From Fragilariopsis cylindrus CCMP1102 (taxonomy: Eukaryota > Bacillariophyta > Bacillariophyceae > Bacillariales > Bacillariaceae): a stretch of DNA of 40,284 nt. Below, piece after piece: positions 1-31,173 of the stretch (the stretch's first letter is position 1; every line of letters starts with the position of its first letter). Under the pieces are notes generated by a model. That model had not been told where the DNA came from. It was given only the letters and a program-made list of their open reading frames with translations, and did no database searches. A program made the position numbers and the translations under genes. The DNA lies in the NCBI GenBank assembly GCA_900095095.1, contig FMBT01000593.1, positions 1 to 40,284 on the forward strand, given 5' to 3'.

Positions 1-1287
1 TCTACCGGGACAAACGGTTTCGGTGAAGAAATTCTTGTGCTAGGAACAATTTCCGAAGCGTGCAAAAGTATCTTCGCTGATAAAAACAAAACCTCGTCAG
101 CACAATGCTTCCAGAACGCTATGCACTCCGAAGCAGTAGCCATGACGGATGAAGGGGGAAACATCGCAGCGGACAACTTGATCTTCAACGAACGCCAATT
201 CAACGCGGTCTTTGTTGTCAAATTGAAAAGTATGCAATTTATGAGAACAGCCCTTGCACACAACCGTTTGGACTTCGACGCTCAGATCACCATTTTAAAT
301 TTTCTTCCTGCCGACGAGGACAATCTAGCATTCCAGAAGATGTTACAATCTGACCGAACGGCCCAAGAGGAGGATCAGATGGAATGCGATATTACGAAAC
401 ATACTAAGCGGACCACCAATCTCTTCATCGACGGTTATCAGGTCGATCGTTTCCATCTTTACACCTGTATCGCAACATTCATGTGTTTTATCCGTGTTAT
501 GTTCGAGAATGGAAAAGAATCGCTAATCTACAAGGGATTTGAGAACCTACTCACATACGTCAAGAGTTCCGAAGGGGCCGGTTGGTTAACTTTGAATACT
601 CGTACCTATTCGAACACTATCCATCACTTGGTCTGCGAGTTACAAATACTGTTGGTAGGTGTCCAGAAATTTACATCCAACAACGATGCCCTTGTCCGAA
701 TGGTCAAGAACGATGCTGAAATTCCTGGTGCACATGCCAACCGCATCAAGTCAGTATGCGAAAAAATGCACTTTGTTTGGACACAACGATGCGTCGAACC
801 TGTCAGCACTTTCATCAACGCCCCAGAGACGTTTTCCTGGTTTCCTCTAATATCAGGAAGGAAGTTTACTATCAAACAACAGGACTATTCTGGCACACCG
901 ACACACCAGAAAGATGCGAAAAAGGGCGACGCACCTGCTTCGGGAAAGCCCAAAGGTGTCGCAAAGCACGATAAGCCTGTAAAGGACAATCCTAATCGTG
1001 CCGTCAAGACCAACGAGGTAATAGAGAAAGAGAAAAAGGGATGGCTCATGTACACTGGAACCAGCAAGAAATTACCTTCTTGCGGGGAATTCCATGAGGG
1101 AAAACGCCTATGCAATGGCTGGATCTATGTGGGACGTCACTGCGGTGCAGATGCATGCAATCGCATCCATGCCAACAGTTTCGACAAACTTACCCCGGAA
1201 TTCCAAGGAAGAGTCAGAACTTGGGTAAACGATAAGAAAAACAAAGTCCGATGGGCACCTGGAAGAGAACCCAAGAATAGTGAGTAA
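1..1287 (+). CDS. Gag-like protein of the YR retrotransposon (5' partial)
   Basis: The frame is open from base 1, so the true start lies upstream; the first in-window ATG is not decisive. At least 428 codons end with TAA at 1285-1287. The body (about 280 residues) is alpha-helical-looking with no domain I can name. It is followed by a Lys/Pro/Asp-rich linker (about 880-1040) and a cysteine/histidine cluster at 1111-1170 with spacing C-x9-C-x4-C-x3-H, that is CCCH zinc-finger spacing; one more Cys lies at 1081. Position in the element and a basic C-terminus with a zinc motif suggest a nucleocapsid-like role in packaging RNA; this is inference. The stop codon sits inside a strong 5' splice site (GTGAGTAA at 1280-1287), so an unspliced transcript would end Gag here and a spliced one could continue into Pol. 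Confidence 0.75.
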   Translation, partial: STGTNGFGEEILVLGTISEACKSIFADKNKTSSAQCFQNAMHSEAVAMTDEGGNIAADNLIFNERQFNAVFVVKLKSMQFMRTALAHNRLDFDAQITILNFLPADEDNLAFQKMLQSDRTAQEEDQMECDITKHTKRTTNLFIDGYQVDRFHLYTCIATFMCFIRVMFENGKESLIYKGFENLLTYVKSSEGAGWLTLNTRTYSNTIHHLVCELQILLVGVQKFTSNNDALVRMVKNDAEIPGAHANRIKSVCEKMHFVWTQRCVEPVSTFINAPETFSWFPLISGRKFTIKQQDYSGTPTHQKDAKKGDAPASGKPKGVAKHDKPVKDNPNRAVKTNEVIEKEKKGWLMYTGTSKKLPSCGEFHEGKRLCNGWIYVGRHCGADACNRIHANSFDKLTPEFQGRVRTWVNDKKNKVRWAPGREPKNSE

Positions 1288-1408
1288 ACAAAACCACGTT
1301 TCTTATGTCTACTATCCACGCCCACGAATCGAACAAATACACATTACATATAAGATTAACTAATTTTCGTTTAATTTACATACTCTTATTCTACATTCCC
1401 TTCACTAG
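1280..1408 (+). other. Predicted GT-AG intron joining Gag to Pol frame
   Basis: The donor GTGAGTAA begins at 1280. An acceptor TTCACTAG ends at 1408 after a pyrimidine-rich stretch, with a branch-like TTAACTAA near 1355-1363. Removing these 129 nt joins codon position 1 (base 1279) to positions 2-3 (1409-1410) and leaves one open frame from Gag through 2540 in Pol, skipping the stops at 1285, 1351, 1357 and 1372. A second acceptor, CTGCAG ending at 1430, would give a short out-of-frame Gag tail ending near 1502. Splicing is predicted from consensus and phase only. Confidence 0.5.
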
Positions 1409-4400
1409 CACTTATTTCACCTATCTGCAGAGAGCCAAACACCAGCACGCTCGATGCCTGTTTTCTTGGTGCTTTCTCAAGCAACAAGGTACTCCAACCA
1501 ATAATCCCTATTGATCCAGTGGTACCACTCGAGTGCGATCCTAGTAGTCCTCTATTTAAAATAGCGAGCAAAACAATCAATGAACGATCGCCTGCCTTTA
1601 CCGAAGAATTCCTTCCAAAAGCAAACGTTGAGTCTCATCGTCATCCCAACCAAAGTCCGTTCGTGAACGCTGGACCTCCTGCCTCGTTCTCAACCAACGA
1701 ACTACATAATTGGGCCAAAAGCCTGCCGGAGGGAGTCAAACAACCCTTATTCGACATAAATGGTAAGAATACAAAGAGTATGCGACATAAAAATATTTCG
1801 TTTACTAGTGAATATCGTTTTCGCCATATTATCCCTTTCTTGTATTTAGGCGAATTCCTTGACAAGGAAAGCCAGAAGAACCTCGAAGAAGTTTCGTTCC
1901 TAGCGAAACAGTTTTCAGAACTACAATCCGAGTACGGTTCGGTCGATACGGAACCTATTCGCGGATTTGAAAACTACAAAGATTTCCGAGACGAAACAGA
2001 ACTCAACAAGCATCGCATCCGTCTCCATTCGGCAGCTCTGCTACAACATAGCTGCGATGTTGAGAAATTGGTATATTACCTCGGTGGCCCACACGTTGGG
2101 GCAAACCGGAATGTACCAAAAATCCTCCAAGATTTAAAGAAAGGGGTACAACCAGAAATCCTAGCCGAAATCAAGCGTGTCTTCGAGCACGGTTCGCCAA
2201 GGCATATTAATGCCACCAATACTGAACAGAACTTGAAAGATTACTACCAATACGGCAACCACGAATCCGTTAACGATAATGAAGACGAAGTTGAGAAAGT
2301 ACTTCTAAAGGATCACCGAAGAGGTAACACTTTACTCGTCGATCCAAGACTATTCGCGTACATCCCGAACAGTCATCTTTCTCCACAAGGACTTGCAGAC
2401 CTTTTTAATCTATGGAAAGAGGCCCGCCACATATCCGATTGCTCACATCGCGTACACCCGGAATCGATGTCAATCAATGATTGGACCAACAAAAAGAACG
2501 AACCTCCAGTCTACTTTGCTGGAAGTTTCGTTCGATTTCTGCCAGTGGATATACAACCTAAGGATTTCATATCCAAAGCGACGTATCCTCCTTGGCGACG
2601 ACGATATGACGAATGCTTTCAGATTCATCAAAAACAATCCGTCTTACAGTTGCCATGAATGGCTTCATGGCGAATGGCATCTCGGGTTCTCTACAGGACA
2701 ATGCTTCGGCGCCTGTTTTTCTCCACCGAATTTGACCAAGGAGCAAAAGGACGGCAGCAACAAGCAAGCTATCTCTGGGAGAAAGAACCAGAACGTACTT
2801 TAGCTAGAGCAGTGGACCATACAAGCCGAATGGTCTTTGAAGAATGCACCTCGACGGAATCATTCACACAAGCATCAAAGGACGCCTCAACACGGGCGTG
2901 TTTCGGAATAACGGATCGCGGAAACCACCGGAATTTCCTATGCAAGTAGATGATTGCATGTATGCTGACGTCGAAGAATATTTCAAACTGACTGCAGCAT
3001 CTAGCATCATGTCTCTTGAGGACGTTTTTGGAGTAGACCATCCGTGCCAGGAGAAGGCCCTATCACAAAAGAAGTTCAATCCATTGTACAACGAAGAACG
3101 ACTCACCGTCGGACACGAAGTGCAATCGCGTAGAATGGTAGTCGTCGTTTCAGTACGACGACGTGCTAAGGTCATAGCATATCTGACCGATGAAGGGTGG
3201 ACAGTAGTAGGTTCACTTAAATCAATCAGAGAAGCATGCACCGTCTTGGGTTTAATTGGCTCAGCAGCAGAATATAATCCTTGGGCTCGAAGCCCAATTA
3301 TTCATACTGCAGAACCTCGTAAGAGAGGAACTGGCAATACGATACAAAAAAGCGAAAATCGATCAACGACTTAAAAAGCTAATCGATAATAAAGTACGTC
3401 GATTGCCCACCACCATGAGGCATCGGATGGAAAGCATCGTTGCAACAGAATATGCTGCCTACATGTACCGTAACGGAATCTATTTTGCACTCAGTGAACC
3501 AATAACTAAGTGTGTCATGATTATCATACGCAGTCTAGCAGATAAGCGATGGGAATGTCCCATAGGACATATTATTCCTAGAATGCCGACTTGGACAACA
3601 TCGGGCGATGCATCTGATTTAGCCCTATCCGTATACATCAAGCAAGCCAAAGTTTTTGTTTGGTACCATTCGGCAAAGACCTTTTCTCACGAATCAAAGG
3701 CCTAGGAAAAGACAAAGAAGTCTTCATTAATAGCCTCGAGTACATCGCGCTCCAGCTGGCTCATATCATCATCAACGAAATCTACGACGAAAATCCGTCG
3801 GCGTTTCCTCCTTCACCAACGCACTTGGCGTTAGGCGACAATACGCCATCGGTTTCGTGGCTCAACCACCACAGTACAGCTTCTACAATGGGACAAAACC
3901 AAATCCGATTGACTGCAGAGTATTCCATCGATGCCAATGTCAAATCGTATGCGGAACATTTGCAAGGAATCAAGAACGAAATGGGAGATACAATTTCGCG
4001 TCCTCACGAACTCTTTACTCCAAAACTAACAACAATTTATGATGTCCCTTTCTCTACACTCGTTAAACAGGTCTGTCAGAAACTTCCAATTCTGCGATCC
4101 TATCGGGTTTTCCTCTTGAGTCCAGAGCTCTTCTCAGTCCTGAGCTCATCATTGTTAAAAAATGTGAGATGGGAGCGTCCACAAAAGCCACAGAGAAACG
4201 GACAGCTTGTACCCGTCGATGCCATTTTATCTACTGGTGCACAATCCGAGGTGTCTACGACTCAATATTTCCTCTAATCACACTCACCGATACGTCTCTG
4301 GTCTACCTCCTAGCCTGTTACACAGCTTTCCTGGCACAGGACATGCGATCGGCTTGAAAAGTATCAAATCGGGAACAGTCGATGCATATCTTCTTACTAT

Positions 4401-5315
4401 CAAGAAGTTTTTAAAAACTTCGACGAAATAAGTGATCGGGACGCTCGTATGTTTACCGGGACCGCTGTTATTGCACCCCCGATCAAAAAGGTCATTGATG
4501 AAATGAAGCGGTTTGAAAAACAACCGAACCGAAGAGAGCCTTGGACATTACAACTTCAAGCCAGATTATACAAAGAATCGCAGGATGAACCTGCTGATAG
4601 CCTAACTAAAGTAGGATTCCAGTGGTTTAGCTGCGTTCTCCCAGCAGGTTGCCGACGCATCGAATGGTGCCAACCGTATGCTAGCCGGGATCCCACCAAA
4701 GAACCAGAACTCAACATTCGAAACGAAACGTATGCATTCTGTGTTGATGATGTCCAGTTCCTTGGAATAGGACAGAGACGCTTTACAACGCCATATGCAA
4801 TACAAAATCGTGATGAGGTGTACTTCGTGGAACTCACTTTCAGAGTGCAGAAAAACGGAAAGAACGGAGAAGTAAAGCGCTTTGCACGTAACTATAGATC
4901 ACCGTTCATGGATCAAATCACCCATTGGATAACCATTCTCGAACGCTTCTCCCGTTTGGTTGGATTAGAAGATAAGACACGCCCTCTTGCAATTTATTAT
5001 GACTATGCCAAGGGGAAAGTGTTGAACATCTGTTCCGACGATTCAAAAAGTATTTTACAGAACATCGTCCGCCTTGAATACGGCATAACCGATCCCAAGG
5101 AACTTAGCAAATGGACGAATCATTCTATTCGAGTAGGAATGGCATGTATTCTCCAATCGCAAGGGAAATCGGGGGACTATATCCAGCGAGCACTAAGATG
5201 GTGCAGCGAATCATGGAAATTATACACTCGAAACCTTTGGAGCGAATCGATTGATCTGTCAAATACAATGTCAAATGAATTGGAAACTGTTACACAACTA
5301 TTGGATGCATATTAA
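1409..5315 (+). CDS. Pol: reverse transcriptase, RNase H and tyrosine recombinase (frame-broken)
   Basis: No ATG opens this region; it probably follows Gag by splicing. The RT has motif A with DDMTNAFR (about 2596-2621), motif B with FGACFSPPN (about 2705-2731) and motif C with QVDDCMYAD (2943-2969). RNase H follows with GDASDLAL (about 3604), LGDNTPSVSWLN (about 3831-3866) and GDTISR (ending about 4001). The YR N-terminal helical domain lies at about 4280-4440 (SGTVDAYL), and its catalytic domain has Arg in AGCRRIEW (4644-4667), Lys in RVQKNGKNGE, HSIR (5121-5132), Trp in RWCSES and the Tyr nucleophile at 5223-5225. So the R-K-H-R-W-Y set is complete. The frame changes eight times, near 2540, 2733, 2843, 3290, 3657, 4270, 4352 and 4405, each at or beside a short homopolymer and each equivalent to a one-base indel. 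From 4449 on it is intact. As sequenced it would not give one polyprotein. Confidence 0.85.
1763..1849 (+). other. Predicted 87-nt in-frame intron in Pol
   Basis: GTAAGA begins at 1763 and TATTTAG ends at 1849. The segment is a multiple of three with no stop, so it also reads through as 29 residues, but those residues are AT-rich and atypical, and the flanking text joins smoothly (FDIN to GEFLDKESQ). Either a true small intron or a retained insert. Confidence 0.45.
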
Positions 5316-5829
5316 TCAATCGTTCCAATACATACCGTACCAATTGCATATTACGAACGCTCTCTAAAAATAAATAATACTAATATATACGCCTCTCAAA
5401 TTTACCAACTGTCGGATCGCCAAATGCGAAAGCCGTTGATCCGACCGTTTTTTTCTAGTCGTAAAAATTTGAATATTGCGCGCATAACCGCGCATCCAGA
5501 ATCGCGATGTCAACAACTGACACACATTTTACATTTGACCACAACTGACAATTTTCAGCATAACATCATATACTCCTATCGATGCAATTCGAAACGGAAT
5601 CATCACGTTAGCTAAAAAGCGTTTCTCTTTCGTCGTTTCTATTATTCGTAACCAACATACAGAACCATGCTATAGTAACCAGCATACATCGGCAACGATG
5701 TACAAAACTTTCAATATTTCACTTTTCCACACAAACGTTCTGTCCATAACGTACACATAAATTCAAAAACTCGACAAATCAATCCCCGAGTTCAAATACA
5801 CACTAACGATTACAACAAATATTCACACA
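5316..5829. other. Non-coding spacer between YR and the third ORF
   Basis: About 510 bases, AT-rich, with no credible ORF (one 63-codon frame at 5424-5615 looks random). It probably holds the 3' end of the Gag-Pol transcript and the 5' leader or promoter of the downstream ORF. I see no clear TATA box or repeat. Confidence 0.4.
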
Positions 5830-6942
5830 ATGGCTTCTGATTCACCACCATCGTACGCGACGATGCTTTCGGGACTACCCAAACCAGTACGCGTTCAATT
5901 AACGGAAGATTATCATCTCCGAATCCAAATAGCATGGATCGACCATATCAACACTAGAAACGTTGCTGGTCATGCAGTGGGCGCAACGCCAAGTGATGTG
6001 ACCAATACCACTGTACCAGATGCAGCAGCGGCAACAGTGGCAACGCCATCAGCACTTACTGTGATTATTCCCGAATCCGCATCTACGACAATCGTTGGAG
6101 AATCGCCGATTAACAAACGTAAGGGACTTGAACAAACGGAACTGTTCACTGATGAAATGGAAACTGAAGAATCTCCTACCGGACTAGGAAAAACTACAGA
6201 AGAAGCCATCAACGTCGACTCACTGATCGTAAAGTCACCAACTCGTCCAAAGAAAGACCATGGAATTACGATTATCACCGGCCATGAAGAGATTAATTAT
6301 CACTTCACCAAAGCGTCACGATCTCTAAATGCCGTTATTAAAGTCGTTGTGTACAAGGATGAAGCCGAAACGGCTCCTACGAAGTACCTCAACGGATTAC
6401 AGCTTTTAACTACGGTTCTCCTCATGACAAATGCTTCGCAAGAAGTTATGGATAAAATTGGAGTCGATAGAATCAATAAGGAGATTCCCAACATCGGAAG
6501 CCGTAAAGACATGATTACACACGACGTCATAGGTTTCCTCACCAAGAACGGCACCCAACTTACTGAATTTCCGGAGACGGAAACGTACGAATCCATCTTG
6601 ACAATGGAGCACGATAGCCCGATCATCATCGAGTATGCAGTAACCAAACACGAACATGATAGCGCATTCCTACCAGTTAAAGGCTGGCTCCAGTTTTGCC
6701 TATACTTCAGGAATCAACAACTAATTATTCCTTTCAACTCATCTGCTAATGGACTGGTCCTTGGAGGCCATTTCATGAAAAAGAAATGGGAACCGAAGTT
6801 TACATTCGAACATTATTGTACAAACAACCTGCACAATAAGATCAGCCCTGTCTATAGAACCGATGGAAACACTGGCAAACTGATCCGTAAATTACTGTTC
6901 TCCAGCGCATGGTCTATCACCATGCCTGCAAAACAAAAATAG
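5830..6942 (+). CDS. Element-borne ORF of unknown function (370 aa)
   Basis: Starts with ATG at 5830 and is intact to 6942. Residues 1-45 are Pro/Ser-rich then amphipathic; about 50-150 is a low-complexity Ala/Thr/Val/Glu region with a possible basic patch (NKRKG). From about 150 to the end it looks like one folded alpha/beta domain: alternating beta segments such as GITIITGHEEINYHF and VIKVVVYK, then helices and a basic C-terminus ending in PAKQK. There is no signal peptide, membrane segment, zinc motif or known catalytic motif. It lies between YR and the terminal repeats, in the same orientation and inside the element. Some Ngaro elements carry an extra ORF here, described as hydrolase-like, but I see no GDSL or GxSxG motif, so I do not assign that function. 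It could be a second structural or RNA-binding protein. Being intact while Pol is broken is notable. Confidence 0.8.
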   Translation: MASDSPPSYATMLSGLPKPVRVQLTEDYHLRIQIAWIDHINTRNVAGHAVGATPSDVTNTTVPDAAAATVATPSALTVIIPESASTTIVGESPINKRKGLEQTELFTDEMETEESPTGLGKTTEEAINVDSLIVKSPTRPKKDHGITIITGHEEINYHFTKASRSLNAVIKVVVYKDEAETAPTKYLNGLQLLTTVLLMTNASQEVMDKIGVDRINKEIPNIGSRKDMITHDVIGFLTKNGTQLTEFPETETYESILTMEHDSPIIIEYAVTKHEHDSAFLPVKGWLQFCLYFRNQQLIIPFNSSANGLVLGGHFMKKKWEPKFTFEHYCTNNLHNKISPVYRTDGNTGKLIRKLLFSSAWSITMPAKQK

Positions 6943-7291
6943 GAGATAAAATCCTTCGATACATTTACACCCATTTGTGAGCGCGGATCCTCCGACAGAC
7001 TCACTATACAATAATAATACATACAATCCGTGAGAGTATACATATATACATCCCACTATACTACAAATGGCATCATCTATACCCGATTATGCCGACTAAC
7101 ATACAACAAAGTATAATACTAACTATATAATAATTTCAAAAAAAAAACAAAAAAAAACTTTCTTTTCTTTTCTTTTTTATCCGGCTGGCCTGCCACTATA
7201 TTTACATGGCGGCTACGAACTCACCGATTACTGGTACAAACACCATCAACCGACTCATTATAGTCGCAGCCCATTAGTGGCGGTGTTAGGA
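6943..7291. other. 3' non-coding region of the element
   Basis: About 350 bases with no ORF. It contains an A-rich run followed by a pyrimidine run at about 7138-7180 and no other structure I can name. Likely the 3' untranslated region of the third ORF. Confidence 0.4.
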
Positions 7292-7544
7292 GCATCGCGC
7301 TTCCTGCAACGATCGCAATTTCGGGATCCCCAAACCCGAATACCGAAATGCAATCTCTACAGTAATCACTCACTATCTCTCTAGCAGCTTAGTTAACCTG
7401 CCAATCACTCCTATGTACTAAACATAGTATTCATAGGACCATAGGTAGATCACATAGCTAGAAATAGTGCCTCCAGCACATGCCATGCATTCTGTAGGAG
7501 CAGACCAGCCGAGACGGCGCACGTGAATTGGGCGAAGTAGATTC
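7292..7544 (+). repeat. Split direct repeat, copy B1
   Basis: 253 bases identical to 7896-8148 except for one base (G at 7311, A at 7915), with constant offset 604 and no gaps. It contains short inverted repeats: CTATG/CATAG at 7411-7415 and 7423-7427, and CCTATG/CATAGG at 7410-7415 and 7432-7437, which could be recombinase-related. In PAT/Ngaro elements B1 is the internal copy that abuts A2. Confidence 0.9.
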
Positions 7545-7895
7545 TCCAGTGCAAGACTCCAGGCAACAGGCAACGGAAGGACAATCACAGTCCGTCCGTT
7601 TACCCCGAACCACGCTTGAAGATTCGCGCCGTTACCAACGAAGCATACTAGTAGGATACGTAGATAAGATTCGTAGGTAGAGTAAGGCAGTACCCTTAAG
7701 GTACAGGATATGACGATCCGGCAAAGCAGAATCGCCAAGAGAGGAAGGATAGGGAAATCAGACGACGGAACGTAAACTCACTCGTTCCATTGTTTCTTCT
7801 GATGTCTGTTTCCATGGGTTGCGATTCCTATCAAGCTAATCTAGCTAACAGGATCTCACCATGGGATTTTTCTTTTTCCCACCCACCCACACCTC
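7545..7895 (+). repeat. Putative A2 repeat between the two B copies
   Basis: 351 bases enclosed by B1 and B2. In a split-direct-repeat element this block should equal the A1 repeat at the 5' end, which lies left of the window, so identity as A2 is inferred from position. It has no credible gene: the reading frame on the other strand that spans the B1/A2 border lacks support. The B1/A2 junction would be the sequence formed when the element circularises. Confidence 0.6.
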
Positions 7896-8148
7896 GCATC
7901 GCGCTTCCTGCAACAATCGCAATTTCGGGATCCCCAAACCCGAATACCGAAATGCAATCTCTACAGTAATCACTCACTATCTCTCTAGCAGCTTAGTTAA
8001 CCTGCCAATCACTCCTATGTACTAAACATAGTATTCATAGGACCATAGGTAGATCACATAGCTAGAAATAGTGCCTCCAGCACATGCCATGCATTCTGTA
8101 GGAGCAGACCAGCCGAGACGGCGCACGTGAATTGGGCGAAGTAGATTC
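7896..8148 (+). repeat. Split direct repeat, copy B2 (right end of element)
   Basis: Second copy of the 253-base repeat, 252 of 253 bases identical to B1. After 8148 the two copies diverge completely, which sets the right boundary of the retrotransposon. The bases just outside form an imperfect CTATCATCATC repeat. Confidence 0.88.
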
Positions 8149-8463
8149 CTATCATCTATCATCATCTATCATCATCTGACTTGCTACGATCGCAATTATT
8201 TATTTGTATCCATCTTTCAATCTTCAATTTATTTTAATTCAGGGTCATAAATTATTACCCCTGTTTTAATTTTAGTGATTATGAGTCCCGTTATAAAAAT
8301 TAATCACGAAGGGCAATATACGGTACAGTGTATTGAAAAAAACAACGATCTTGAGATTTCGATAATTCAACCGCGAAAAAAAATCTTGCTGCGAAAAGCA
8401 CTACTACGAAGCGAAGGGTAGCATTGTGATAGTGTGTGTGCAAGCCGAACAATTGCAACAAAA
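8149..8463. other. Spacer between retrotransposon and chalcone-isomerase-like gene
   Basis: AT-rich, beginning with ATC-type simple repeats (8149-8180). No ORF. It probably holds the promoter or leader of the next gene; the retrotransposon insertion ends only about 315 bases before the first ATG, so it may lie in the promoter. Confidence 0.4.
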
Positions 8464-9801
8464 ATGAGTATCAAGCCTACTACGTATATTATTACATTAC
8501 CGTATTCATCTTGTTCGATGAATCTTCGATTCGACTCGACTCGACACGACTCACTGATACATCTGACTCATCGCACACACTCTGCCATGATGAGAGACTC
8601 TTGCCTTTTTCCTTTCATCGCAGTGTGGTCGTCGATCTGTTTGATGCAAGTATTACTAAAAGTGTCGAAACAACGACAACGACGTTCACAACAACAAAAA
8701 CAACGACGTTCACAACAACAACAACAACAATATCATTTTTACTATAGTCCCAAGTATATGATTATTACAAGAATTCTACTACTATACGTACTGAAAAACA
8801 ATATGCTTGCCGTTGAAGGTACAAGTAATGCTGTTAATGTTAATAATGTTGCAGCAGAAGAATGCGCTGCTACAGGAGGAATGTCGTCATCTTCGTCGTG
8901 TTCGTCTTCGTCGGCAACAACAACAACAACAATAGCAGCTACGCGCGCAACAACAACGACAACGACAACCACGATCGATTCTTCCTCTTCTTTACCAGAA
9001 CTATCTGTACAGCAGCAAGGACAGCAAGAATCAACATCAACATCAACATCGAAAATAATATCAGTGGAAGGTGTTGACCTGCCGGGTATGAGAATACTGG
9101 ATGGGGTATCTTTATATAGAAATGGACACGGGATGCGATTTATACCATTTTTTGGTCTGAGTATAAAAATTTATGTTGCAAGTTTATATAGTTCAATACC
9201 TATATTGACCGTAGAACAAATTATGGGGAAAGAAAACGAAAACGAAAACGACAAAGTAGATGGCAATGGTGATGGAAACGGAGATAATAATAATATTAAT
9301 AATAATATTAATAATAATGTCGATAATCATCATCATCATCATCATCATCATCATGGTCCTATCCAACTTGATTTTACATTTTTACGATATGTAGGAAAAT
9401 CAAGAGTAGTGTCGGCATGGAAACAACAATTGGATCATAGTGTTACATATACAGATTATGATGAATATGAAACTGAAAAAGCAAAATTTATACAATTATT
9501 ATCAAGTCAACCAATTGAAAATTTGGGAACACAATCTATACAATTAATTGATGGTGAAACACGTATCATCGATCAGGGTAAATTAATGGGTATAATACGT
9601 GGAAAAAAATTTCAACGTTCCTTTTTAAGTATGTGGTTTGGTCCCATGGCTGTTTCAGATGACTTGAAATTAAATTTTCTACGTGGTGATGCACATCCAA
9701 CAACGACATTAACAGCAACAACAACAACAACAACAATTCTACAGCAACAGCAACAGCAGGAAACACTGCAACGATCGACTCAAATACCGGTTGAGGCATG
9801 A
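8464..9801 (+). CDS. Chalcone-isomerase-like domain protein
   Basis: First in-frame ATG at 8464 (445 aa); a later ATG at 8758 opens MIITRILLLYVL, a signal-peptide-like start, and may be the true one, since the intervening part is a Gln/Arg repeat tract. The conserved domain starts around 9070: a GMRFIPFFGLSIKIYVASLY segment matches the GxGxR...KIYVAxLY core, followed by PIQLDFTFLRYV, a helical segment, and a C-terminal GIIRGKKF...MWFGPMAVSDDLKLNFL segment typical of the Chalcone_3 group. That fold includes non-enzymatic fatty-acid-binding members; plant-type catalytic residues cannot be confirmed here, so a lipid-binding or unknown role is as likely as isomerase. Ser/Thr-rich tracts precede the domain, and an Asn/Asp/Glu-rich insert ending in nine His (9327-9353) splits it. 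Single exon, frame intact. Confidence 0.72.
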   Translation: MSIKPTTYIITLPYSSCSMNLRFDSTRHDSLIHLTHRTHSAMMRDSCLFPFIAVWSSICLMQVLLKVSKQRQRRSQQQKQRRSQQQQQQYHFYYSPKYMIITRILLLYVLKNNMLAVEGTSNAVNVNNVAAEECAATGGMSSSSSCSSSSATTTTTIAATRATTTTTTTTIDSSSSLPELSVQQQGQQESTSTSTSKIISVEGVDLPGMRILDGVSLYRNGHGMRFIPFFGLSIKIYVASLYSSIPILTVEQIMGKENENENDKVDGNGDGNGDNNNINNNINNNVDNHHHHHHHHHGPIQLDFTFLRYVGKSRVVSAWKQQLDHSVTYTDYDEYETEKAKFIQLLSSQPIENLGTQSIQLIDGETRIIDQGKLMGIIRGKKFQRSFLSMWFGPMAVSDDLKLNFLRGDAHPTTTLTATTTTTTILQQQQQQETLQRSTQIPVEA

Positions 9802-10320
9802 ATATTTTAAGGTCGCTACGCTACTTCTTGTGTAGTTACTGCACGATGTATGGTGCGATTGATGCGATTTAGATTCCAATTTGTATATAGGTAAAATAAA
9901 TGGTAGCTGCAATGATAGTACTGCACTACAGTAGGTAGATCATGTGTCGGAGGTTTATCTCTTTTCATTAAAATAGAGGTTAACTTGTATCTCCCTTTAA
10001 TCAGATTCCACTCCACACATTCCCTCCCTCCCCTAGAAAAAGGAAAGTAAGAAAAATAATAGTGTTAAAAAATATGCATACATTCCGACAAATCTATGAA
10101 TACAATGTACATACAATTGCAATGTAATTAAAGCTGGATTTTAATCTTAATCTAAAACAATTCTCTTAGAAAATTATGGCGCTATTTCTATGTTCATTCT
10201 CTTTATTGTTATGAGTGCGTGCGTGTGTTGTTAAGTGTGTGTTTTTTGTATTCTACTGTACAGTACTTCTAGCTGGTCAATGTGTGTGTGTGTGTGAAGC
10301 CGGGATGAATTATTTCTTCA
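9802..10320. other. Spacer between two convergent genes
   Basis: 519 bases holding the 3' ends of the chalcone-isomerase-like gene (+) and the transporter gene (-). It contains a short TG dinucleotide run near 10280-10297. No ORF with protein character. Confidence 0.4.
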
Positions 10321-12309
10321 TTATGAGCTGGGATTGATTGATTGACCCTTTTCTTTTATCGAATCAATACCCTGTTTCAACATGCTCTGTAACCCGTCGA
10401 TGCCTAAGTTACTATATAGACATGCTGCTAATATCAACGAACCACCTACAGCAGCATTCATTCCTACTTGTTCTCCCATTAATGCAACAGCGACGGCTGT
10501 TCCCCATAATGGTTCTGTTGAAAAAATCAACGTCGTTTCTGATGCCGATAAAGTTTCGAGAGCTAAAGTTTCCATATATATCGTCAATGCTGTTGTGATA
10601 CATCCTGTCCAAAATAATGAGAACAATATAGATGGATCCGTAAACCATTCTTTCCATGGAAAGGACGTTTCAATCGTTGCTAATGATGACTGTAAACCAG
10701 CAAGGCTAGTACTATCAAAAACATCCAATGTATATAGTCCATACATTAACGAAGAAATAAATACAGCCATTAATTGCGCAGCTGTCATCCGAGGAGCCTC
10801 TTCGGGGTATAGATTCATAGCTTTTTCCATCCTCCAAAACCCTAGTCCGAATGCGAATGGTTGTACCATTGATAATAAGTCACCAGGTGTGATATCACTA
10901 GTAAGTGACGAAAAACCACTGACGGCAACTCCTGTATCACTAACACCAGCACCAGCCCCACCCAATTCAAGAAAGGCAACTCCCACCAAAGCCACCATCG
11001 CTCCGATCCATTGACGAGGTATTAACTTTTTTCCAGTCATCCAATCTAATAATGGAACAATAACAACAGCCATACTACAAAGAAATGCAGATTTAGAAGC
11101 CAACGTGGTTTCTAACCCAACAGCTTGAGCGACATACCCAAATGAATTCCACATACCAACCTCTAATCCCCATAATGTTGCCATAACACGAGAATTGTCA
11201 AAAACAGCATTATGCTTGATATTGTTTAGGATTGTGCCGGTGTTAGTCTTGTTGATATCTTCAAGTTGTTGACTATTGCTATTGCTATTGTTGATGTTAT
11301 TATTGTCCTTATTGGTTTTGTTGTTGTTTTTACCGGGAAATATTGGTAAAAAACCATCCAGTAACCATGGTAATGTAGCGAAGGTTGCTAAACCAAATCG
11401 TAATGAGGAAGAGATACTCACAGGCATTTCATCACCTAATAGTTTAACCACACTAAAATTTGTTCCATACAATGCAGCAGCAGCAACTAATAACCATCGT
11501 GCACGCCATATTGCTGCTATTTTTTCATCTTCTACTTGATGATCCACAACGTCGACATTAACCACAACAACAACACCATCATTATCGTCACTGATGCTGT
11601 TGCTGCTGCTGCTGCTGCTGAGGCTTATATCTAGTTGATCCTCGTTATCACGGATTATGCTAATAATAGACGTAGCAGAAGAAGGACTATTGTTGTTACT
11701 ATTATTGACAATTTGTTGTTGTTTTTGTTGCGGTATTTTACTTTCAGGAAATAACAATGATACCTCGTCGAGAGACGTGGTAGAGGAAGATGCTGTAGTA
11801 GTTGCAGTTGCTTGGAATGATTCAAGTTCTGATAAAGCTTCATCCATAAATCGTTGTAATCTTATTTGATCATCATCTTCATCTTCACTCCTTCCCTGGT
11901 AAATGTTCACAGTGTTATCAGTAGTGTCGGTGGAATTAGTAGTAGTAGTAGTAGTAGCTGCTGTAGGAGCATAAGAGGATGTAGATGTAGAATTAACGTT
12001 ATTGTTATTGTTATTGTTCTTTTGGGCTAAAAGAGGTGATGATAGTCGTGGTAATAATTGCATAGTAGTACCACTCGTCGATTTGTGTTGGTGTACTGAT
12101 TGAATTCTCCTTCCCATTTCTCCTCCTCCTCTTCGTTGTTGTTGTTGTTGTTGTGGAACGAACGACGATGATAAATCAAAGGACGCTAAAAAGCAGAGTA
12201 AGAAAGGAAAAAGTATTATCATGGAACTATTATTATTAATAATTGATGTTCGTGATGATACTTGTACTTGTACTGATAGTTTTCGTTGGCTATGTATCGT
12301 CATCGTCAT
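10321..12309 (-). CDS. DMT/EamA-family transporter, probably plastid-targeted
   Basis: 662 aa in one exon, ATG at 12309. Residues 28-50 are a hydrophobic signal peptide (IILFPFLLCFLASFDLSSS) followed by Phe-Val-Pro at residue 50, resembling the diatom ASAFAP site; this suggests plastid or plastid-envelope delivery. Residues 52-265 are low complexity (Gln, Asn, Ser, Thr, Asp/Glu). From about 270 there are two EamA repeats with about ten membrane helices: first WLLVAAAALYGTNFSVVK through a helix ending at VALVGVAFLELG, then GDLLSMVQPFAFGLGF to the conserved STEPLWGTAVAVALMGE and a final GSLILAACLYS helix. EamA proteins export or exchange small metabolites, including nucleotide sugars and triose phosphates; the substrate cannot be told. 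The long low-complexity N-terminal region is unusually large for the family. Confidence 0.85.
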   Translation of the reverse strand: MTMTIHSQRKLSVQVQVSSRTSIINNNSSMIILFPFLLCFLASFDLSSSFVPQQQQQQRRGGGEMGRRIQSVHQHKSTSGTTMQLLPRLSSPLLAQKNNNNNNNVNSTSTSSYAPTAATTTTTTNSTDTTDNTVNIYQGRSEDEDDDQIRLQRFMDEALSELESFQATATTTASSSTTSLDEVSLLFPESKIPQQKQQQIVNNSNNNSPSSATSIISIIRDNEDQLDISLSSSSSSNSISDDNDGVVVVVNVDVVDHQVEDEKIAAIWRARWLLVAAAALYGTNFSVVKLLGDEMPVSISSSLRFGLATFATLPWLLDGFLPIFPGKNNNKTNKDNNNINNSNSNSQQLEDINKTNTGTILNNIKHNAVFDNSRVMATLWGLEVGMWNSFGYVAQAVGLETTLASKSAFLCSMAVVIVPLLDWMTGKKLIPRQWIGAMVALVGVAFLELGGAGAGVSDTGVAVSGFSSLTSDITPGDLLSMVQPFAFGLGFWRMEKAMNLYPEEAPRMTAAQLMAVFISSLMYGLYTLDVFDSTSLAGLQSSLATIETSFPWKEWFTDPSILFSLFWTGCITTALTIYMETLALETLSASETTLIFSTEPLWGTAVAVALMGEQVGMNAAVGGSLILAACLYSNLGIDGLQSMLKQGIDSIKEKGQSINPSS

Positions 12310-15415: not shown

Positions 15416-18400
15416 TTATACTGTTACAATTGCATTATCACTGATGCTGCTACTACTTGTAGCCACATTGACGAGAATACCTTGATTGCTTCCTTCATGC
15501 GACAATTTTTCTCCGTTTCCATCAACTTTCTCATCTGTTAATGCATCCGTAGTTGTTGTGCCTTGCCTGAATTTCTGTTTATACATAATCAAAGCAACGA
15601 AAACAGTAATCAAGAGGCATGCAGTGGACAATAAAGCCTTGCCTGCAGTACTTATTGTTGATCCTAAATTCTTGCTAATATTCATGATTTCTGAGCTACT
15701 CGAAGAATCGTTATTTCGAAGGCTTGATGGTCCAGAGTTCGACAAGGCTGTAGTAGGAGCTGTTGGTGGAGGACTTATTTCTTCTACCAAAGGCTCGAAA
15801 GGTTCGATAGGTTCGGTCATAGGTGGTATTTTTATTGGTACTACGCATGCGCCATCAGCGTTGCATTCTCCAATACAGCAGGATATAGATCCCATAAGAC
15901 AATTACCACCATTCTCCACGCAAAAGATTGCTTCAAATATTGGTTCGCTATAGTTCATCCTCGCAACGCGTTCTGGATCTCTAACACCATCTGACCAAGA
16001 ATCAAAAACATATGGTGGGTAATTCTCTACTTTCAAATGAATATCTTGTTCTTTCCATGACCAGACTTGCTCAGGTGTTGTTATAGGTTCATCTTCGATG
16101 AGGATTTTCGTACCCGGGGCGTTACTTCTGACATCAACCATAACAAGTGTTGGTTGAATTTGACGACTAGTTTGTGATACAAGACCATTCTCGTCTGTAG
16201 CATACAGAATAACCTCTAGGTAGCTGTTCAATGAAGCATAAAAGTCCTCAGGTTCAGGAGCTGGATAAATATCAAAGTTATTACCAAGTGTTAGAGCAAG
16301 AAAAGGATGATAATGATCATCATGATGTTTGCGAACCTCCCATTCTAACTTAAAATCATTGAAAGCTGTTCCATTGGCATAGAACGCTTCTCCCCTTAGA
16401 CGCAAGATTTGGCCGACATAGAATTGATCTCCTTCGATAGGAGAAAGAATTTTAACACTAGGTGGAGTACCTATCTGAATTGTTTTTGATTTTTCTTGAA
16501 TTTGACTGAACGAATCAGTGACAATTAAAGTAACAGTGTATGCCCCTAGCTCTCTATACGTATGCCCGGGATTGATATCAGTAGATTTCCCCCCATCGCC
16601 AAAGAACCATTTAAAGTTAAGCTCGTCACCTTCAGGATCCTCCGTCAAACTTCCATCGAATAGGACTTCCTCGTCGACATCATAGAATTTATCTACGAAA
16701 TCAAAGTTGACCGAAGGTGGCTCATTATGAATACCGGTATATCGAATGCGTATCACTGTATCGTGATTGCCAAATTTGACGATATATAGAGCTTGTGTAT
16801 CCTGAATAAAAAAAAATCGAAAAAGAACAATTGAGAATAATACTAATACTGATAACAGTACAACACCATCGCCACTATGACATAACTACTGAACTTGGTC
16901 ACGCACCTTATAGGGACCGAAGAACATGTCGACCATCTTAGCTTCGTTCTTACCATCTCCTGGATATGTAATTGAGTGGTAAAACTATAATACGCATGGC
17001 AAGAGATGTGAGATTAGAAAGAAATACAGCTCGATTGTGTTGCTACTAGACAAAAATAGAAGTATAATCTAAATGCAGGTGGTATTCTCACTGTAGAAAT
17101 TGAATAAAAAGTACTACTGGAACTTACAGTTTCATTTTTGTATTTTGGAATAGGGGGAATGCATGTTCTACATGCATTCTCGTTATCTTCGATTAAAGTG
17201 TAAATATCGTAAAATACAAACTGTAGTATAAGTCCGAATGAAGAGGACAAGACAAGATATCACTCGGTTAGATCCATATTCGAATTCAAACACGGTCAAA
17301 ACGAAGTGGTAGCTGTACACAATATAGATTAATAAAGTCGAGCATACTGAACTTACATCGATAAAGAGAAATTTAAATTCTTCTGGCCAAAGTCCTTCCG
17401 GTACAAATGCCGATCCTGCAACACATCCATCTTTATTCTCTCTGTGTTGGTACCAGTAAAATGGTTCCTCGAATTCATCAGAAACAGGGCACTCGTCTGC
17501 AGAATGTCGAAGACATGGACCTTCGTAGGGTTTATGACCATAATTCGCACCTACATTACAAATACAGAAGCAGTTCCACGAGCAGCAATAGCACAAACAC
17601 GATGAAGCATAAGTACGAGCGAAAGTAGCAGCAGTTCAATGCGAATAGACACAATAGCAGGAATCCAATAAGCAGAAGAACTAATGTAATATTCGTACCT
17701 TTATAGTCTGTTCCAGCATAATTAATTTCTTCCCACGTTCTTCCCCCGACATCGGATATGGCTAATCTAGTCTTTTCCTTCTCGTTTGGATCCATACTTA
17801 GACGAAAGGGATTACGAAGACCAGTAGCGAAGATTTCGCTGCAGATAGCGTTATCCGATGCATCCAATGGGACTTTCCCCTCTGTATTACGACAGTGATA
17901 AGATTCATACCCACTAGCTGTTGTGTATGGATTGTCATCCGGTGAACTTCCATCATCATTTAATCGGATCAAACTACCAAGAGCACTTTTACTATCTTGA
18001 GCATTTTCCGGCGTACCGCCATCGCCAGTCGCTACGTAAAGTTTATCGTCGTTTCCAAAAGTCATCGCGCCACCATTATGAACGCTATCATGGAGTGGAG
18101 CTCCTCTCCAAATTTCCTCTCTTTCATCGTAGTCAAGCATCAATGTCTCTGGGTTCATTACAAATCGAGAGATAACATTCCACGGTCCATCTTCTGAGTT
18201 ATCTGCCAAACAGTCATCCTTATGTTTGGTGTAATATAAATATACATAACGATTATCTTCAAAGTTTGGATGGATCGCTATACTTTGAAGCCCTCTTTCA
18301 ACGTTTGTACATATGTTATCATCCATATCAAGAATTTCGGTAGTATCAGATGACTCGTCAGGATCTTCAACAGCACTGACTTTCCCACCCTGGTTAACAA

Positions 18401-18698
18401 GCAACATCATCGGCTTCCAATCATTTCTTGGGTTTTTTGCAAATGTTCCAGAAATAGCATTCTTCGAAGTCACAGTCTCTGCAATAAAACCTGATGGGAG
18501 AGCGTGTGCCTCTTTCACAATATAAGTTGCTAGAAGCAACAGAAAGCCTACTGAAACGGCGTGAAAGAACATGTTCGGTAATTGATGCAAGGAAACAACA
18601 ATAGCACCTACTGTAATATATACTATTGAATTGATACCGTAAGTTACTGAATCGTATGGAATAATTGGTAAAGGTATGTACGGTTGTTTGGTTTCCAT
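15416..18698 (-). CDS. Glucose/sorbosone dehydrogenase-like beta-propeller with PKD domain and membrane anchor
   Basis: Five exons: 18698-17699, 17550-17357, 17220-17128, 16984-16907, 16801-15416; all four introns (148, 136, 143 and 105 nt) are GT-AG and keep phase, giving 916 aa. The N-terminus has two hydrophobic segments; an alternative ATG at 18572 would give a classic signal peptide (MFFHAVSVGFLLLLATYIV). The propeller shows GLQSIAIHPNF, HNGGAMTFGNDDKLYVATGDGG and SDVGGRTWEEINYAG then NYG, all hallmarks of the GSDH/HHIP-like family (PQQ-type sugar dehydrogenases and relatives). A PKD fold (FDGSLTEDPEGDELNFKWFFGDG...GAYTVTLIVTD) lies at about residues 482-555, then beta-rich sequence, a Cys-rich stretch (CVENGGNC...CCIGEC), a Pro/Ser linker, a TM helix at about 838-862 and a cytoplasmic tail. 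Likely a cell-surface or secretory-pathway protein acting on or binding sugars. Whether PQQ is used is unknown. Confidence 0.88.
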
Positions 18699-28429: not shown

Positions 28430-29155
28430 CTATTTTCTACGTATATGAAAGAAAAGCAAAATATGAGAAAGGAAAAAGAAAAATACAGATACGAATAACA
28501 TGTTCCATCGTTTCTGGAACCAACGTGAAGCAAGCAGATTTCTTCTCCTTATTTCCCCTCGCAATGTCTTGCACTCTTTCAATGAAGGACTAACTTTGCG
28601 GTACATGTGTGTACCAACAATATTTATGCATAGCAATGTTACTGATAACGATCCAAGTCATTCAGCTGACGCTGATTTAATATTTAATGTTATCAGCCGT
28701 TCGTGTTTATCTATAGAACAAAATAAGGAATAGTGTGTGTGTAAATAATATATAAATATATATGTATGCAAATCTTGTCCTAATGCTATGCTATATAAAA
28801 GTATACAGGAAGAGCTGCAAGTTCTTGTATATATTTGTTTAGGTCGAAGAGAGAGAAGTTTAGGTTTGGGTTTAGATTTTAGATTTTTTGTTCCTGAAAC
28901 ACGACTGACTTCAAGACTAACTTAAGCTCTTTCTCAGCTCATAACCCAATCGCTGACAGATGATCGATTTTTGATGTTTTTCTTCGATATTATTTATTTC
29001 TATTTTTTTCTGTCAATTTTAATTTAAATTCTAACACACTCTCGACCTTTTAAGACATGATCAAGCTAGGTATATAGTTCGACAAGACAGTAGTAGAGAT
29101 TGACTATAGGATATCATCGTTTTTAAATCTGGAAATCTCTTACTTGTGATATATT
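28430..29155. other. Intergenic region
   Basis: About 725 AT-rich bases with the 3' end of the EF-hand gene and the promoter of the GTPase gene. A 77-codon ATG frame (28500-28733) has no recognisable features. TA-rich segments occur at 28745-28765. Confidence 0.4.
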
Positions 29156-31173
29156 ATGCAAAATTATACTCAACTCAGTTATAAGAGGTCAACACGACGT
29201 GGAGGACGTTCAATGTTAGTAAATTTTCTTTTTTTATCGGTAATATTAACGACGACAACGACGATAATGCGGTTTCCATTCCCAAGAGCTGCTGCATTTG
29301 TTTCTCAATTTCCGAAAGTGACGACAAAAATGCAAAGGTCCAGAATAAGTATACGGACGACATCACCGATATCACGAGAATATTCTTATCTCCAACAAAA
29401 GAATAGTAGACTGAATAATAATAGCAATTTCAACAATATGAGTGAGGATATCGTAGCAGAATTTTCCTCAAAAGCAGGTGGCGGATACAACCGTCCTGGT
29501 GTTCAGTGGTATCCTGGTCATATTGCTAAGGCTGAGCGGCAATTATCCGAAACATTAAAGGCTGTTGACGTGGTAGTAGAAGTACGGGACGCTAGAGCAT
29601 GTAAAGCCACATCTCATCCACGGGTAGGTGAATGGTGCGCTGGACGGCCTCGGATTGTCGTATTGACACATCTTGATATGATTCCCAAGGCGGCAGCGAA
29701 CTCATGGAGAAAAGCTTACGAAAAATTTGGAGCGGAAGATATGGATGATGCACCAATTAATCGACAAGTAGCAAATCAAGCAAAACAAGCAAGAGATATT
29801 CGTTATCAGTTTGATGATAATAAAGAATCTAATGCCGAGAAGAAGAAGAACAAGAAGTTGTTGTCGACGACGAAATCACCATCAGCTACTGGAAACATAA
29901 CTCCCGTGGAACAGGTCCTATTCGTTAACGCTAAACAAGGACAAGGCATCCATGCTTTACATCGAGCTATATTCAAGGCGGGTAGTCATGTTCAAGAACG
30001 TCGAGAACGGAGAGGTTTAAACCCACGTGCTTTACGGGTAGGCATTATTGGTTATCCTAATGTTGGAAAGGTAAGTTGCATTTGAAAGATTGTAGCTCTG
30101 CATGCATTTCAATTTTTCTAATCATACAGCAAGTACCATATTCAGTATCAGTGCAAAAATAATATTCATCTCACTATTTACATATATTTTCTTTCTTTCT
30201 TTTTAAAAATGTATTTACAAAACAAACCAACAAACAAAAAAACCATTTATGCTGGGAATTGATTAAAAACCCTGATTATTGAAATGGAATACATTATCTG
30301 ATCATTATATGACAATTTTTTATTTAGTCGGCATTGATCAACAAAATTTTGGGACGAAAACGAGCAAAGACAGCAAATACACCCGGTGTGACACGATCTT
30401 TGCAATGGATTAGGGTCCGTGCAGAGGGAAAGGCATATGCAAGTGGAAAATCATCAGCCTCAGTATTGACATCATCATCGTCTAAATCTTCGAATACTAT
30501 GAAAAAGGAATTTGAATTATTGGATAGTCCTGGAATTATTCCAGCTAAAATGGTAGATCAATCGGATGCCCTATTATTAGCAGCCTGTAATTGTATTGGA
30601 CAGGCAGCATACGACAATCAGGCTGTGGCTGCCTATCTTTATGAGTGGCTTAAAGCCGTTTATCTGATGGACAAACAAGCTTTAACAGCACCCAATTGGC
30701 GGGACAAGTGTATTGACCGTTACGGATTCGATCCGTTGGAGAAGGTCCAACGAGACGAAGATGACATCGTCCAAGACGAATATCTTACTGGAGAAGATAT
30801 GCTGTTCAAAGTTGCCGACGATCTCTGTCGTGGTGATGCTGAAGATGCGGCCAGAAAGATGCTTCAAGACTTTCGACAAGGACGGATGGGCCCTATATCA
30901 TTACAAATGGCTCCAGAATCTGAAGAGGACGGTGGAATGCTTTCCGTATCAGTGGGTGATGGTACCATTTTGGGAAGACAATCGATGCGTGGTAGTGAGA
31001 ATGGTGGATTTGATGCAGAATATCAACAACAAATCCAAGACGAACGAGCACGAATTGCACTAGAAACTGCCAAGGAACGTGGATTGGAGCTACCGCCTAT
31101 CGTTGACGATCCAGAAAGAGCAAAAGAGGAGGCAGAGGCCGATGTCGGGAAGGGTATGTTTGATGGTTGGTAA
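29156..31173 (+). CDS. RbgA/YlqF-type circularly permuted GTPase, probably plastid
   Basis: Two exons, 29156-30070 and 30328-31173, with a 257-nt GT-AG intron (GTAAGT...TATTTAG) inside the P-loop, between Lys and Ser of GYPNVGK/S. Product 586 aa. The N-terminus has a hydrophobic segment (MLVNFLFLSVIL, alternative ATG 29213) and AAAFVSQ, an ASAFAP-like plastid targeting site. VQWYPGHIAKAERQL and DVVVEVRDAR are the RbgA/YlqF/MTG1 signature. The G motifs come in permuted order: G4 position LTHLDM (instead of NKxD), then G1 GYPNVGKS, G2 TPGVT, G3 DSPG. The C-terminal extension is acidic and longer than in bacterial RbgA. RbgA assists late assembly of the large ribosomal subunit, so this one likely serves plastid ribosomes. 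A basic Lys/Ser insert separates G4 from G1. Confidence 0.88.

Follow-up and report, generated by a model that had tools for sequence, protein, structure and literature searches.

A putative Ngaro-type tyrosine recombinase retrotransposon with a mosaic fourth gene in the diatom Fragilariopsis cylindrus

The left end (positions 1–8148) of contig FMBT01000593.1 of Fragilariopsis cylindrus CCMP1102, the whole 40,284 nt of which is here called the window (working label C684), is very probably occupied by a copy of a tyrosine recombinase (YR) retrotransposon with Ngaro-type anatomy. Its layout is A1-[Gag-like ORF1, reverse transcriptase (RT)-RNase H ORF2, YR ORF3, ORF4]-B1-A2-B2, where ORF stands for open reading frame. 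The window carries the 3′ three quarters of an element of ~10.7 kb, ~2.5 kb having been lost where the contig begins. Placement with the Ngaro type is structural, being based on anatomy and residues. A preliminary description of this DNA had proposed an Ngaro/PAT-type YR retrotransposon; the anatomy, RT, RNase H and YR agree with that proposal, the likeness in structure being to Ngaro. New relative to that description are a mosaic ORF4, an overlap of ORF2 and ORF3 containing a candidate slippery heptamer, and the broken state of the window copy.

Terminal repeats and coding regions

The 3′ end of the element consists of B1 (7292–7544), A2 (7545–7875), a pyrimidine-rich spacer of 20 nt (7876–7895) and B2 (7896–8148), all on the forward strand, with flanking DNA starting at 8149. 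B1, delimited by a repeat scan and by comparison with sibling copies in the 67.9 Mb assembly, forms with B2 a 253 nt direct repeat with one mismatch. The B1/A2 junction reads GATTC|TCCAG, and the spacer is the same in the six copies having B2. A1 is absent from the window because the contig begins inside the element. It stands at the left end of the sibling copies C773, C342, C265, C641 and C743, beginning in C773 2,511 nt upstream of the base that matches window position 1, and it equals A2 over 331 nt without mismatch; the segment at 7545–7875 is called A2 because these identical 331 nt form the left end of the siblings. Thus the B1-A2-B2 arrangement of the preliminary description is borne out by the 253 nt B repeat and the A2 coordinates, and the A1 that it expected to the left has been located. 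With A1 taken from the sibling copies, the order is A1-ORF1-ORF2-ORF3-ORF4-B1-A2-B2. C641 and C743, which have both ends, measure ~10.7 kb from A1 to the end of B2 (subject to the assembly switching described below), and they carry A at the left and B1-A2-B2 at the right, not one long repeat at both ends. No long terminal repeats (LTRs) were present in the sibling copies examined, where the left end is A1 instead. Likewise, an inverted-repeat scan of window positions 1–12000 found neither inverted terminal repeats nor an internal complementary region; A1/A2 and B1/B2 are direct.

ORF1 occupies 1–1287 on the forward strand, open at its 5′ end, and represents the last 428 codons of a Gag-like protein whose full frame of 793 codons is open in C773 and C641. 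The CCCH-type Gag described earlier is recognizable from the finger C-x9-C-x4-C-x3-H, placed by motif search at 1108–1170 (forward strand), and a finger region resembling it was seen by eye in relatives from Nitzschia inconspicua. The ORFs follow one another on the same strand, as the 'one transcription unit' of the preliminary description had it; transcription as such is presumed from this order.

ORF2 (1375–4277, forward strand) is a predicted RT with RNase H, as recognized from a fold model, PDB structure matches and catalytic residues. Its 919 aa relative P0003 has a start codon corresponding to window position 1519. RT motifs A, B and C lie at 2588–2620, 2681–2731 and 2940–2969, and the acidic residues of RNase H fall within 3595–3624, 3726–3752, 3825–3860 and 3975–4001, all on the forward strand; the catalytic residues of both domains are conserved among relatives. 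The predicted fold is that of an RT plus RNase H (pTM 0.82), with which the PDB structure matches agree, so that the RT and RNase H named earlier have their residues at the expected places and the support of predicted folds. By fold the closest solved RT is that of Ty3, a gypsy RT, a match that does not separate gypsy from DIRS-order RTs. By sequence, searches of Pfam, NCBIfam and PDB with single proteins and with profiles of 13 and 36 sequences gave no RT, the Pfam RT family matching 0 of 36 ORF2 members, and a scan of IMG/VR with the 36-member alignment confirmed 0 of 20 candidate stretches.

The methyltransferase family PF05869 was absent from the families matched by the 36 ORF2 members. 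As Pfam misses the RT too, the lack of a methyltransferase is better argued from the length of ORF2 after RNase H: the RNase H fold match spans residues 691–843 of 919, leaving ~76. No DDE integrase or aspartic protease family was found in the scanned ORFs, with libraries that also overlook the RT. Of the earlier statement that protease, DDE integrase and methyltransferase are all missing, the methyltransferase part is upheld by ORF2 length, while integrase and protease are unmatched in libraries blind to the RT. LTRs or a DDE integrase further left, which the preliminary description had named as findings that would count against it, were not found in the siblings, the integrase half of this result being weak for the reason just given.

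ORF3 (4157–5315, forward strand) is a predicted tyrosine recombinase, judged from residues, a fold match and sibling frames, and insertion probably proceeds by this YR. Its frame is continuous in the window from 4314, with one shift upstream of that point, and is a frame of 416 codons in C329, C265, C641, C53 and C99. The catalytic R lies within 4647–4673, K within 4842–4868, HxxR within 5118–5141, and W and Y within 5190–5231, all on the forward strand. R, K, HxxR, W/H and Y are conserved in 5–6 sequences, with R replacing H in P0015. PF00589 was matched by two of five YR sequences, marginally (best E 0.0054), and the YR profile found weak, unrelated matches only in PDB. The complete R-K-H-R-W-Y recombinase of the preliminary description nevertheless holds, with residues where expected and a predicted structure whose tyrosine-recombinase fold match is weak but coherent.

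Overlap of ORF2 and ORF3 in two families

A second YR-retrotransposon family is found in the same genome at C90 (248500–256500, locus L042), with relatives at C32, C184 and C573. Its RT-RNase H frame is open over 1066 codons and is overlapped by a YR frame of 427 codons; in single comparisons this family is 25 % identical to the window family in YR (E 1e-17) and 21 % in RT-RNase H (E 2e-22). No long terminal repeats were found within the 8 kb read at L042. The same stretch holds a 36 nt inverted pair (1660–1695/4902–4937), part of the overlap region being repeated backwards upstream of ORF2.

In C329, ORF3 overlaps ORF2 by 207 nt in the −1 frame, and the overlap contains a single heptamer of the form X_XXY_YYZ in the ORF2 frame, A_AAA_AAT. 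In the window this candidate −1 ribosomal frameshift site lies at 4157–4163 (forward strand, ORF2 frame), and the −1 frame runs on from it into ORF3 (KKCEMGAS..). Among 11 copies searched, the string downstream of the heptamer was located at 10 places, nine of which preserve the full heptamer; the heptamer of C743 is short by one A, and the downstream string was not found in C773. In C342, ORF2 and ORF3 read as a single frame. The overlap of the second family also has one such heptamer, again A_AAA_AAT in the same frame (L042:4857), at what appears by eye to be the matching spot, the peptides there being ..ALLLKN.. and ..SSSLLKN.. in the two families.

Programmed −1 frameshifting is the best reading of the overlap because the heptamer recurs in the second family with its frame and apparent position unchanged. 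On these sequence comparisons it is fairly likely that most YR arises when ribosomes translating RT-RNase H shift to the −1 frame at A_AAA_AAT and so extend the protein. There is a less probable but serious alternative: translation of YR could begin at a start codon of its own or by re-initiation, the heptamer being there only because an L-K-N peptide is conserved. Several observations count for this alternative and against frameshifting. An ATG in the ORF3 frame follows at 4169, six bases past the heptamer, and the second family has a YR-frame ATG near the start of its overlap, upstream of the heptamer. The RNA downstream of the heptamer has no special structure (z −0.17), and among slippery sites A_AAA_AAT ranks below A_AAA_AAC in strength. 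Additionally, peptide conservation may explain part of the conservation at the heptamer, yet many relatives, available as proteins only, differ there. By eye, K-N is present in P0003, P0004, P0006, P0007, P0041 and P0042 but not in P0005, P0012, P0013, P0017–P0020 and P0022, so the peptide is not strictly required; moreover, the second family keeps the heptamer at the matching codon with no ATG just behind it.

Copies, mosaic ORF4 and a probable empty site

Window included, A occurs at 20 genome places over 329–331 nt, all shown as 100 %, B at 17 places at 99.6–100 %, and the YR gene in 11 near-identical copies (99–100 %). The A and B counts far exceed what chance would give. The further copies that the preliminary description had thought worth seeking thus amount to eleven YR copies with the window's own, plus the distant second family. 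High copy identity, together with the identical A and B repeats, suggests recent amplification. In the window, private indels break up ORF2 among several frames and put a single shift into ORF3, whereas the sibling ORFs are open. Against C329, the most extreme copy, blocks within 1–5300 show 16 substitutions and 65 gap columns, which suggests that the private indels are partly consensus errors of long reads. Because this excess of indels points to such errors at least in part, the family is not concluded to be dead.

ORF4 (5830–6942, forward strand; 370 aa), delimited by sibling comparison, gave no Pfam or NCBIfam match above the curated cut-off. The window protein is ~38 % identical to sibling ORF4, and its DNA occurs once in the genome, with two partial matches of 66–68 % besides itself. 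Over the equivalents of 5651–7291, the ten other copies are 96–100 % identical to one another and 65–67 % to the window. To the left, window 1–5815, or the part of it available, is 98.4–99.5 % identical in most aligned copies (C53 is lower, at 97.4 % in one piece and 87 % over 5651–5815); to the right, 7068–7291 is 95.6–97.8 % identical to the siblings, and B1-A2 differs from theirs at no more than one position. On this pattern of identity the window copy is read as a mosaic whose break points closely flank ORF4, near 5815 and near 6950–7070, because a diverged ORF4 lies inside a backbone of ~99 % identity. Recombination between RNAs or DNAs of the element would have produced it, with a donor that the assembly lacks: as this ORF4 DNA occurs once, no second parent carrying it is present there. 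A chimeric contig joining two elements would also account for the difference, and the assembly does switch between copies elsewhere in the element; it is nonetheless an improbable explanation, given that the window ORF4 DNA is single in the genome, that the sequence to its left is ~98–99 % identical to the siblings, and that B1-A2 matches them with at most one mismatch.

Two more ORF4 lineages are present, one in C571/C260 and one in C86, and the four lineages have in common a core of W, FC, F, FN and LG. The C571 and C260 stretches (C571:20000–28500, L043; C260:24000–31500, L044) are ~95 % identical over >4 kb and include a relative of ORF4 together with its leader. Neither contig has a match to RT or YR; the stretches may represent a non-autonomous derivative or a remnant that was duplicated. 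In C86, an open ORF4 relative of 388 codons (29026–30192; L045:27–1193) lies within ~3 kb of a degraded element copy, and three tandem units of 153 nt (L038:4840–5298) stand just left of an element-like stretch. Between ORF4 and B1, at window 6959–7103, there are degenerate repeats of ~52–57 nt, seen in the sibling copies as well.

Within the element the assembly evidently jumps from one copy to another, because C641, C743 and C21 have one left flank in common and yet C641 and C743 differ in their right flanks. Apparent tandem units, B-A followed by a second unit, occur in C773, C342, C265, C84 and C99. From ~8.5 kb of the alignment to the end of the compared stretches, C773, C342, C265 and C84 do not differ at a single base (C342, C265 and C84 mutually from ~7 kb), and these four contigs all end 5,498 nt after the B that precedes the second unit. 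The tandem units were not counted as evidence of circle integration, since base identity and common contig ends make a shared assembly path likelier. A collapsed path at these four ends is likely, possibly hiding tandem or circular copies.

The window flank right of B2 matches C678:203434–203749 (82 %), and the left flank of A1 common to C641, C743 and C21 matches C678:203151–203443 (93 %). C678, which reads ..CTATCGATCT-CTATCATC.., that is, left flank and then directly the start of the right flank, is probably the site without the element. Any exact target-site duplication at this one site is ≤2 nt. Within a short-repeat tract of the CTATCATC type, however, the right flank of the filled site exceeds that of C678 by ~10 nt, and the filled flank agrees better with C678 when 7–11 nt are left out of it (edit distance 8–9 versus 14). 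An imperfect duplication of 7–11 nt, or a change in repeat length, may fit equally well, and C678 was therefore rejected as proof that no target site is duplicated. When the empty site of the C773 copy was sought, the matches were all short. Seven distinct left flanks yielded no firm consensus motif; the A1 of C669 deviates in its first two bases.

Pfam-annotated genes lie right of the element (8434–40284): chalcone-isomerase-like (8434–9798), EamA transporter (10324–12309, minus strand), PKD domain (15419–16756, minus strand), glucose/sorbosone dehydrogenase (17559–18698, minus strand) and GTPase (30334–31170).

Relationship to known elements and proposed mechanism

Protein database searches with ORF2 returned 13 and 37 relatives, the latter by scoring the best 7990 candidates by shared words. 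Those bearing organism names come from the diatoms N. inconspicua and Fragilaria crotonensis, the others mostly from environmental collections, which accords with the 'diatom-like' genome of the preliminary description in that every named relative is a diatom. A search with the second family gave 13 relatives, none with an organism name.

Ngaro-like elements of fungi, Cafeteria burkhardae and Ectocarpus share with the diatom element the order A1-[ORFs]-B1-A2-B2, a Gag-like ORF1, an RT-RNase H ORF2, a YR ORF3 and the lack of a methyltransferase, and their YR frame may differ from the RT-RNase H frame (PMC8547959, PMC3783388). In contrast to them, the diatom element has no Pfam RT in 36/36 members and a marginal PF00589, is ~10.7 kb long versus ~6 kb in Cafeteria, and adds a fourth ORF after YR and A_AAA_AAT in the ORF2/ORF3 overlap. 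DIRS-1-like elements have a YR and overlapping ORFs too, but carry inverted terminal repeats and an internal complementary region where the diatom element has direct split repeats, and differ also in that no methyltransferase was detected here. Cryptons are not known to carry an RT. CryptonS of Phaeodactylum and oomycetes is likewise a YR mobile element of a diatom (PMC3212892), but has 5–6 bp terminal direct repeats.

It is unlikely, though not negligibly so, that the element is PAT-like or VIPER-like, with the same split direct repeats and another RT/YR lineage. PAT-like elements (Pat1, Toc3, Kangaroo) and VIPER share the split direct repeats (PMC4157794, PMC6681497), VIPER/TATE of kinetoplastids have RT-RNase H and YR (PMC6681497), and Pat1 has a Gag zinc finger (PMC4157794); in addition, RT and YR here are too diverged for the Pfam profiles reported to detect Ngaro/DIRS domains (PMC3783388, PMC8547959). 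However, the methyltransferase expected in PAT was not detected, and ~76 residues remain after the RNase H match; nematode-form Pat1 and Kangaroo, moreover, have internal repeats between methyltransferase and YR. VIPER differs in host group, being reported from kinetoplastids alone (PMC3783388). A gypsy-like LTR lineage that captured an adjacent recombinase gene, and whose terminal repeats bear only a superficial likeness to split direct repeats, is very improbable: the sibling repeats stand in the order A1...B1-A2-B2, no integrase or protease family was found in the scanned ORFs (by libraries that miss the RT as well), and YR follows and overlaps RT-RNase H in two families that are 21–25 % identical to each other. 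More tentatively, and with the odds against it, the elements might form a separate, hitherto undescribed YR-retrotransposon superfamily of diatoms and other planktonic organisms, ranking alongside DIRS, PAT, Ngaro and VIPER, with RT and YR outside current domain profiles, a −1 frameshift RT-RNase H-YR fusion, and a fourth gene exchanged as a module between lineages of one genome.

No description of an Ngaro-type element in a diatom was found in the literature searched, with subscription journals and Repbase outside it, and prior records are possible. The diatom transposon literature consulted treats LTR retrotransposons as the dominant class. DIRS sequences served as references in a diatom LTR study (PMC2806351), a 'Gypsy/DIRS1' class makes up 1.11 % in Chaetoceros tenuissimus (PMC8613185), and CryptonS is present in Phaeodactylum (PMC3212892). 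Outside diatoms, a brown alga carries DIRS/Ngaro-like elements (PMC3145265, PMC12477816), with 15 Ngaro families in Ectocarpus (PMC12477816), and Cafeteria has Ngaro elements (PMC8547959).

Under the Ngaro-type reading, ORF1 would package the element RNA, and ORF2 would copy it into DNA. The B1A2 segment would serve as the template that closes a circle with a B.A junction (GATTC|TCCAG), as proposed for split-direct-repeat elements, and YR would recombine this junction with a target site, leaving A1 at the left and B2 at the right. A −1 frameshift at A_AAA_AAT would yield few recombinase molecules per RT, and ORF4 could be an accessory gene open to exchange through recombination, for which a template switch between two RNAs packaged together is the simplest route.

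Should annotation by profiles overlook RTs and YRs of this kind, diatom and plankton genomes may contain a share of YR retrotransposons that has gone unrecorded. The two families of this genome, with a common heptamer and a mosaic ORF4, would offer a testable system for recombinase dosage and for gene swapping between retroelements.

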